Positions 30,216-32,499 of a DNA stretch of 32,499 nt are shown here, in pieces; position 1 is the first letter of the stretch, and every line of letters starts with the position of its first letter. The notes below the pieces were generated by a model that saw only the letters and a program-made list of their open reading frames with translations, was not told the origin of the DNA and made no database searches. The DNA lies in contig JAUNXU010000009.1 of NCBI GenBank assembly GCA_030539615.1, positions 1-32,499 on the forward strand, read 5' to 3'. A program made the position numbers and the translations under genes. Origin of the DNA: Methanobacteriaceae archaeon. Lineage in GTDB: Archaea; Methanobacteriota; Methanobacteria; Methanobacteriales; Methanobacteriaceae.

Positions 30216-32129
30216 TTGGATATACGTAATGTTGATGGAATTGGTGATAAATTAGCTTGTAAAATTATTGATTCTTATGGAGGATTAGATAATTTTATTA
30301 GTCGTATAAAAAATTATGATATTGAACAATTAATGGAAATTGATGGTTTAAGTCAAAGAAAAGCTATGAATATTGTTAATTATGTTCTTAATAATCCAAG
30401 TAATAATTTTTTAAAAACTGAAGAATCAAAAATTATTTATGAAGATATTATTAATCGTATTCTTAAATTTACTAATACAACTTATGCTAAAAATCGTGTT
30501 CTTTTAATTAATCCATCTAATAATATGGATTCTATTAAAAATATGCAGAATATTGTTTCTAATGCAATGAATATTTGTGAAGATCTTGATTTAAATTATA
30601 TTCAAGATTTATATGAAAATGTTGATTATCTTGTTGATGATTTTCGTCCTGTTTTTAATGATAGTATTTGCATAGTTTGTGAAGAATATGATGATTATAT
30701 TAAATTACTAGATAATGGTTTTAATAAATTTTGTAATATTTTAACAGGTGAAGATGTTCTTAGTTTTGATAATTATGAATTTATTATTTTTTTATATGGA
30801 GATTGTCTTATTGATATTGGAGATGCTTCTAATGTTGTAATGGTTAGCAATAATTCACAAGATTATGAAATTTTACCAGATAGTCTTATTTCTTATTTTA
30901 TTACTAATAAATCTATTTTAGAAAATACTTTTAAAATTAGAAAAGCTCTTAATTGGGATTCAGATATAGGTGATGTTTTAAATTTATTAGATGGTATTAA
31001 TGATAATGTTGTTGATCTTGATGATATTATAGATATTGTTGAAGATTTAAAAGATCAAGGAAATAAAAAAATTAAAAGTAGAATACGTGATGTAAATCTT
31101 AGTGGTGAAGATGTATTATTACTTCTTGATGAAGATAATGTTCCACCTAAAATACAAAATATTTTTGATTTTGTTATAGATGAATTATTAAGTGAATTAT
31201 CTAAAAAAACTAATCTTAGTTTTGATCCATTCATTGTTAAATATCCCTTAAAAATTGATTATGATGAAATTGAACGTGTAAAAAAAATTGAATATGCAAA
31301 TAAACATATTAATAGTTTTGAAAGAAAAGTTGAAGCATGTAAAACATTATCTGATTTAAAAGATAATGTTGTTAAAGAAGTTCTTGAAGTTATTCATTTT
31401 GATTATGATTTTACTTTAGGATGTTTTAGTAAATATTATGGATTAACAATACCAGAATTTGGTATGGATTATATTATACATGATGGTTTACATATTAGAT
31501 TAAAATCAGGAATGAATGAAAGTAATAAAGAAATGCAATTAATTGATTATAATCTTAATAGTGATGATGGAATTGTTCTTTTAACAGGTGCAAATAGTGG
31601 TGGAAAAACAACTCTTTTAGAAATGCTTGCACAATTTTCTATTATGGGTCATATGGGACTTGGAGTATGTGCTTCCAAATGCATATTAAAATTAGAAGAA
31701 GAAATATATTATTTTTCTAAAAAACATTCACTTGATGCAGGAGCTTTTGAAACCTTCCTAAAAAAATTCATACCAATAACATTAGGAAAAGATGATAAAT
31801 TAATTTTATTAGATGAAATTGAATCAATAACAGAATTAGAAGCAGCAATAAAAATTATAAGTGGATTTATTGAAAATATTCAAAATACAAATTCATTTGC
31901 AATTATAGTTACACATATGGCACCACAAATATTAAAACAAGTAAAAGTCAGAGTAGACGGAATAGAAGCAAAAGGACTAGACAAAGATTATAATTTAATA
32001 GTAGATAGAAGTCCACATATTAATTATTTAGCAAATAGTACACCAGAATTAATATTACAAAAAATGTATGAAAAAGCAGAAAATCCATTAAAAGAAGTTT
32101 ATGGTGATATTCTTAAAAAATTCCAATAG
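30216..32129 (+). CDS. MutS-family ATPase with N-terminal helix-hairpin-helix
   Basis: A 637-residue archaeal MutS-related protein. Residues 5-55 hold two helix-hairpin-helix motifs (VDGIGDKLACKII and IDGLSQRKAMNIV), typical of non-specific DNA binding. The middle (60-440) is diverged and acidic, with no recognisable mismatch-binding MutS domain I. The C-terminal ATPase has Walker A TGANSGGKTT (457-466), Walker B LILLDEIES (529-537) and VTHMAP (565-570). It ends soon after, with no Smr nuclease domain. The role is probably DNA recombination or repair rather than classical mismatch repair; this is inferred. The start codon is TTG with GGGAG 9 bases upstream. Codon third bases change from T to A preference within the gene. 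Confidence 0.85.
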   Translation: MDIRNVDGIGDKLACKIIDSYGGLDNFISRIKNYDIEQLMEIDGLSQRKAMNIVNYVLNNPSNNFLKTEESKIIYEDIINRILKFTNTTYAKNRVLLINPSNNMDSIKNMQNIVSNAMNICEDLDLNYIQDLYENVDYLVDDFRPVFNDSICIVCEEYDDYIKLLDNGFNKFCNILTGEDVLSFDNYEFIIFLYGDCLIDIGDASNVVMVSNNSQDYEILPDSLISYFITNKSILENTFKIRKALNWDSDIGDVLNLLDGINDNVVDLDDIIDIVEDLKDQGNKKIKSRIRDVNLSGEDVLLLLDEDNVPPKIQNIFDFVIDELLSELSKKTNLSFDPFIVKYPLKIDYDEIERVKKIEYANKHINSFERKVEACKTLSDLKDNVVKEVLEVIHFDYDFTLGCFSKYYGLTIPEFGMDYIIHDGLHIRLKSGMNESNKEMQLIDYNLNSDDGIVLLTGANSGGKTTLLEMLAQFSIMGHMGLGVCASKCILKLEEEIYYFSKKHSLDAGAFETFLKKFIPITLGKDDKLILLDEIESITELEAAIKIISGFIENIQNTNSFAIIVTHMAPQILKQVKVRVDGIEAKGLDKDYNLIVDRSPHINYLANSTPELILQKMYEKAENPLKEVYGDILKKFQ

Positions 32130-32130
32130 G

Positions 32131-32272
32131 AAAAAGGAGTATTGCCTAGTTACTAACTCTCTAGATCACAGGTAGATTACCAACATTCCTCCCTGAGCAA
32201 CCCTCGTATAAGGCAGTCATATCATTACACTAAATCCTTTATAAAAATTATAAGGAACCCCTAGTAACAGAT
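32131..32272 (-). ncRNA. Candidate structured small RNA
   Basis: A non-coding block richer in G+C than its surroundings: 28 of 60 bases at 32161-32220, against almost none in the flanks. The ends pair through GTTACTA/TAGTAAC (32149-32155 and 32262-32268). Internal hairpins are TCCTT.../AAGGA (32235-32256, one bulge), GGTA-ATC-TACC (32171-32181) and CCTT-ATAC-GAGG (near 32202-32213). Two helices gain a G-U pair only if read on the minus strand, and a T5 run at 32131-32135 ends that strand next to the MutS-like stop. A strong TATA box lies at 32363-32373. No known RNA family is recognised. Confidence 0.5.
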
Positions 32273-32499
32273 ATTCTCATATTTTTAGTTAAATAACTTA
32301 TTATTATCAAATATCCTCCAGAAAATATTAAATTAAATTAATTCTCTATTTTTCTTTGAAACTATATATATAATGTCTTTAAAAAAAACGAATTAAAATT
32401 TCATTTAAAGATTCGACAATTATTAGTTTTATATTAATATTATATTAAATCTATCTTTTTAAAAAAATTAAAATTCAAAAAAATTAAAATTATATATAT
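32273..32499. other. AT-rich flank with possible promoter of the candidate RNA
   Basis: Very A/T-rich. TTATATATATA on the minus strand (32363-32373) is the best box A and would start a transcript near 32340, upstream of the candidate RNA. A short inverted repeat, CGAAT/ATTCG, lies at 32389-32393 and 32411-32415. No gene was seen before the window ends. Confidence 0.4.

Follow-up and report, generated by a model that had tools for sequence, protein, structure and literature searches.

A conserved minus-strand RNA of Methanobacteriales resembles archaeal box H/ACA guide RNAs and is predicted to target helix 69 of 23S rRNA

The stretch of DNA analyzed here (the window) is a 32,499-nucleotide contig of a Methanosphaera genome (GenBank assembly GCA_030539615.1, contig JAUNXU010000009.1). 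Close to its end, a gene for a MutS-like protein (30216-32129) converges with a non-coding block that lies directly behind it, and in which a preliminary description, made from the sequence alone, had placed a minus-strand gene for a small RNA. Conservation across the order Methanobacteriales and compensatory base changes strongly support an RNA gene on that strand. Its product is very probably an archaeal box H/ACA guide RNA, whose hairpin in the window would direct pseudouridylation of helix 69 in 23S ribosomal RNA (rRNA).

The block adjoins the MutS-like stop codon at 32129 and is non-coding, as first described. Its elevated guanine-plus-cytosine (G+C) content was confirmed: the best 60-base stretch has 48% G+C compared to 25% window-wide, a level reached by only 0.05% of the window's 60-mers. 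The RNA gene is upheld, but of the 140 bases originally ascribed to it the G+C-rich, conserved part extends only from about 32137 to 32223 (44% G+C); positions 32224-32290 have 24% G+C and are not conserved in relatives. The minus-strand T5 tract is present at 32135-32131, while the proposed TATA box could not be distinguished within sequence so A/T-rich. The three hairpins with a 7-base-pair (bp) closing helix found no support, the conserved part being smaller and shaped differently. The complement that suggested this helix exists (GUUACUA at 32268-32262 with UAGUAAC at 32155-32149) but is absent from every relative. We rejected it as a real structure because it occurs in the window genome only and its 3' arm is conserved guide sequence, which pairing would sequester; it is probably due to chance, or window-specific at most. 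Single-sequence folding of the minus strand gave energies no better than those of shuffled sequences (z = +1.26), as did folding of the plus strand, so the structure first proposed would have found no support in folding alone. The evidence for the structure predicted below is comparative, not thermodynamic.

The minus strand, used as a blastn query, produced matches in 41 of 100 relatives, two of them short and probably due to chance; the remainder share only query positions ~68-160 (window ~32131-32223). In an alignment of 30 loci, a 3' domain is almost invariant and genera other than Methanosphaera possess an additional conserved 5' domain: in most Methanobacteriales, the window hairpin (hairpin II) is the second hairpin of a two-hairpin RNA of ~170 nucleotides (nt). 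A covariance model of this two-domain RNA, built from 14 non-Methanosphaera sequences (model R1), matched 84 of 150 genomes of the order and 17 of its 19 genera, missing copies being weak evidence of absence in genomes whose rRNA regions are partly runs of N. Model R1 scores were 111-203 bits in other genera (lower where a contig cuts the RNA) and 58-78 bits in Methanosphaera, and the window was matched at E = 2.8e-12. A second model, R2, matched positions 32219-32136 with 92.5 bits; R2 includes the window sequence and is not independent of it, but hairpin II was also matched by blastn in relatives and by R1, which was built without Methanosphaera. Four Methanosphaera genomes without a match were checked. 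Two have contigs that stop within the MutS-like gene or shortly after it; in a single-contig genome (G015), the MutS-like gene itself was also not found in the sequence searched; and in another (G006), the 366 bases present behind the MutS-like gene gave no match to the RNA.

Model R2 found no homologues outside the order in a domain-wide sample. The exact core pattern of the methanogen RNA also occurs in three contigs assigned to Bacteroidota and Micrarchaeota (loci L062 and L063, JARKQC010000085.1 and JARKQC010000198.1; locus L084, JAHKLX010000102.1), which look like misbinned methanogen contigs.

The predicted features of the window RNA, with the basis of each assignment, are as follows.

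32140..32215, minus strand: H/ACA-type hairpin II, conserved core including the ANA box (R2, blastn and R1 matches)
32211..32215, minus strand: 5' arm of the lower stem, UGCCU, with its 3' arm AGGCA at 32147-32143 (compensatory changes in relatives)
32198..32206, minus strand: 5' guide strand CGAGGGUUG, complement of 23S UAACCCUC in helix 69 (best 23S match)
32192..32197, minus strand: 5' arm of the upper stem, CUC-AGG, with 3' arms UCU (32165-32163) and GAG (32159-32157) and a bulge between these (alignment of 30 sequences)
32166..32191, minus strand: kink-turn or kink-loop, GA (32191-32190) opposite UGU-GA (32170-32166), with apical stem GGUA/UACC (motif conservation)
32154..32158, minus strand: 3' guide strand (A)GUUA, complement of 23S UAAC(U) in helix 69 (23S scan)
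32140..32142, minus strand: ANA box AUA (ANA box in 31 distinct sequences)
32131..32135, minus strand: T5 tract, possible transcription terminator (sequence)
32219..32274, minus strand: window-specific 5' hairpin, in place of hairpin I of other genera (minimum-energy fold only)

Read along the minus strand from 32215 to 32140, hairpin II comprises a lower stem, a two-sided pocket, an upper stem, a kink-turn and a 3' ANA box. To evaluate this arrangement, the two-hairpin H/ACA structure was written down and its pairs were then counted on alignments, with controls in which the 3' partners were slid. Standard pairs occupied 97.4% of cells in the full RNA (32-43% in controls) and 94% in hairpin II alone across 30 sequences (24-49% in controls), percentages that are biased toward these sequences, from which the pairs were drawn. 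Changes on both sides of a pair, of which the full RNA has five, are in our judgment stronger evidence for the predicted stems. Hairpin I displays them as CUGAUGC/GCAUUAG, CCAAUGC/GCAUUGG and CUGGUGC/GCAUCAG; in hairpin II, the lower stem changes from U-A to C-G, and the middle of the inner three pairs of the upper stem is G-C, A-U or U-G among relatives. RNAalifold independently recovered the hairpin I stems and the hairpin II lower stem.

The motifs expected of an archaeal guide are likewise retained. A GA opposite NNU-GA, the signature of a kink-turn, lies above the pocket of both hairpins and is kept in the alignments, including all 31 distinct sequences that fit the hairpin II motif. ANA boxes in these 31 are AAA (16), AUA (10), ACA (3) and AGA (2), and in 23 distinct hairpin I sequences they are AUA (15) and ACA (8), the A's being constant while the middle base varies; as A.A was a condition of the motif search, the alignment of 30 sequences, in which both A's are fixed, provides a check independent of the motif. 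Target and ANA box are separated by ~13-14 nt in hairpin I and by 15 nt in hairpin II, and guide and ANA box by ~14-15 nt. Published definitions place the target 14-16 nt from the ANA box and the kink-turn 5-6 nt above the pocket (PMC7991803), with further rules for the lower stem and spacing (PMC4652768). The predicted succession of stem, internal loop and stem, together with ANA box, kink-turn and spacing, matches this definition of archaeal box H/ACA RNAs.

We then scanned 23S rRNA for U-N with complementarity to the pocket strands on either side, deriving p values by comparison to shuffled guides. Hairpin I matched best at GCUGGGUU[U]AGACC in the peptidyl-transferase center (p 0.0015-0.018), and hairpin II, the window's guides included, at GGGGGUAAC[U]AUAACCCUC in helix 69 (p 0.007-0.06). 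We take these uridines to be U2586 and U1915 in E. coli numbering; a second pairing register of hairpin II would place U1917 in the pocket. The best-matching sites of both pockets are established pseudouridylation sites in other archaea. Guides from four lineages match 23S rRNA best at helix 69, by a clear margin over the next match, and no part of the RNA is more conserved than the guide strands: CGAGGGUUG is invariant except for its last base, G or A, both of which pair with U1917, and GAGUUAGU of the 3' guide side is invariant in 30 sequences. A search of the window's genome for the genes encoding Cbf5, Nop10 and Gar1 found all three.

In the mechanism that we propose, the hairpin at 32215-32140 would bind Cbf5, Nop10, Gar1 and L7Ae, with L7Ae on the kink-turn and the PUA domain of Cbf5 on the ANA box. 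The pocket would capture helix 69 of 23S rRNA, and Cbf5 would isomerize U1915, and possibly U1917 in the second register, to pseudouridine. In most Methanobacteriales, the preceding hairpin of the same RNA would guide modification of U2586. Transcription, assembly of the ribonucleoprotein and modification of the target are inferred.

Several observations weigh against so specific an assignment. The 23S sequences scanned came from two other Methanosphaera genomes, the window's assembly having given no 23S match, and the helix 69 match, limited to 4 bp on the 3' guide side, is moderate when taken alone. Hairpin II has a 3-4 nt bulge in its upper stem and is not a textbook fold, RNAalifold folds the upper part of this hairpin differently (CGAG with CUCG), and the window's lower stem has one pair fewer than that of relatives (U-U). 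This imperfect fold, the frequent location of the gene near the 23S-5S end of rRNA operons, and a target scan confined to 23S rRNA would all be compatible with an H/ACA-type RNA whose hairpin II acts on another target (16S rRNA, transfer RNA or messenger RNA) or serves as a pre-rRNA chaperone or processing factor. We consider this unlikely, given the agreement of four lineages' guides on helix 69, the conservation of the guide strands, and the fact that known archaeal counterparts target the same sites. The lack of an Rfam match might instead indicate a structured RNA of a class not yet known that merely resembles H/ACA RNAs. We consider this very improbable, since two hairpins independently combine an ANA box, a kink-turn and the appropriate spacing with a pocket that complements an established pseudouridylation site of other archaea.

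The preliminary description had itself raised a further explanation, a 3' untranslated region or terminator of the MutS-like gene, and the block does lie directly behind that gene's stop codon. To this we attach hardly any weight: the RNA is on the opposite strand, its conserved features would function only when read from the minus strand, folding of the plus strand does not improve on shuffles, and conservation of the RNA extends to contexts that lack the MutS-like gene as a neighbor, namely outside Methanosphaera and at four loci (L004, L005, L011 and L012), in all of which the 3' flank is unrelated. As a full explanation it is refuted, although a side role as a terminator is possible. An archaeal box H/ACA guide RNA directed at helix 69 is the reading that we favor.

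As the preliminary description had anticipated, the RNA could not be assigned to a catalogued family. Searches against Rfam and for transfer and transfer-messenger RNAs returned no match, with no relevant hit to HgcG or any other Rfam family for the window or a relative (L030) at E up to 10, or for ten relatives at E up to 1. The label 'undescribed' holds insofar as Rfam 15 contains no such family, but the class is recognizable. Archaeal H/ACA guides have been described for Pyrococcus/Thermococcus, Archaeoglobus, halophiles, Methanocaldococcus and Pyrobaculum. Neither Rfam 15 nor the openly accessible literature that was searched yielded a mention of a Methanobacteriales H/ACA guide RNA, with an earlier listing in supplements or subscription papers being possible; the kind of RNA is known, and this RNA is apparently new.

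Its closest counterparts are defined by targets and hairpin type. Positions 2621 and 1956/1958 in halophile numbering are equivalent to E. coli 2586 and 1915/1917. In Haloferax volcanii, two H/ACA hairpins, HP1 and HP2 (Hvo1 and Hvo2), likewise serve the same two 23S regions, with 2621 attributed to HP1 and 1956 and 1958 to HP2 (PMC2584109, PMC4652768). Both of the latter positions are modified from one hairpin with alternative folds, and Hvo2 is described with alternative, imperfect folds that recall the bulged hairpin II (PMC4652768). The likeness to these guides lies in targets and folds; the two hairpins are adjacent in the Methanobacteriales RNA, and the first is missing in Methanosphaera. 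Pyrococcus Pf7/Pab40 (HgcG) also carries several H/ACA hairpins in one RNA, although Pf7 has three; its motif 3 (Pab40.3/Pf7.3) targets 2016, which corresponds to E. coli 1915, and is related to Archaeoglobus Af4.3 and to M. jannaschii motifs (PMC4652768). The eukaryotic H/ACA small nucleolar RNAs U19/snR191 modify the equivalents of 1915/1917 (PMC2584109) but have a hairpin-hinge-hairpin form without a kink-turn, unlike the archaeal RNA (PMC7991803).

In the MutS-like protein encoded next to the RNA, Pfam identified MutS domain V, a weak helix-hairpin-helix match at the N terminus and no other MutS domain; the neighborhood of gene and RNA is kept in many, but not all, Methanosphaera. The RNA gene often follows 23S-5S rRNA genes in the same orientation, and many contigs end nearby (L003, L012, L017, L020, L024, L027, L032 and L038), as does the window at 32499. 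A processing element of the rRNA operon, suggested by the frequent position behind 5S rRNA, was considered and rejected: the distance varies from ~0.1 to 1.4 kb. In four other genomes (L034-L037), the stretches read around the RNA contain no rRNA gene.

No Methanosphaera genome examined gave a credible match to hairpin I, either beside hairpin II or elsewhere, the search elsewhere covering 19 genomes (best E 0.9); the window has none, and its own 5' hairpin shows no conservation. One Methanosphaera subclade (L002-L007, L014 and L015) has a structured 5' domain, ~110 bases upstream of hairpin II, with a closing stem that, by eye, changes on both sides, an upstream hairpin, and a stem bearing a nearly fixed UCUGUAAUGGA, for which no complement stood out in 23S rRNA. 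This domain appears three-way-junction-like; the other subclades and the window differ again in their 5' sequence, the window species seemingly with a hairpin of its own. These observations suggest a lineage-specific change of architecture, with diverged or new 5' sequence in place of hairpin I. We tentatively propose, as a possibility rather than the expected outcome, that Methanosphaera lost the U2586-guiding hairpin and that the 5' half of the RNA was replaced by lineage-specific domains. Either the modification was lost, or another guide or enzyme supplies it, or the guide diverged beyond recognition.

Together, the results fill an annotation gap in Methanobacteriales, the order to which the main gut methanogens belong, and would extend the two-target arrangement of halophiles, helix 69 plus the peptidyl-transferase center, to another lineage. 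If hairpin I was indeed lost, Methanosphaera either lacks the U2586 modification or makes it otherwise, and the 5' half of its RNA may have acquired a new function; the genus would then represent a natural test of losing one of two guides.
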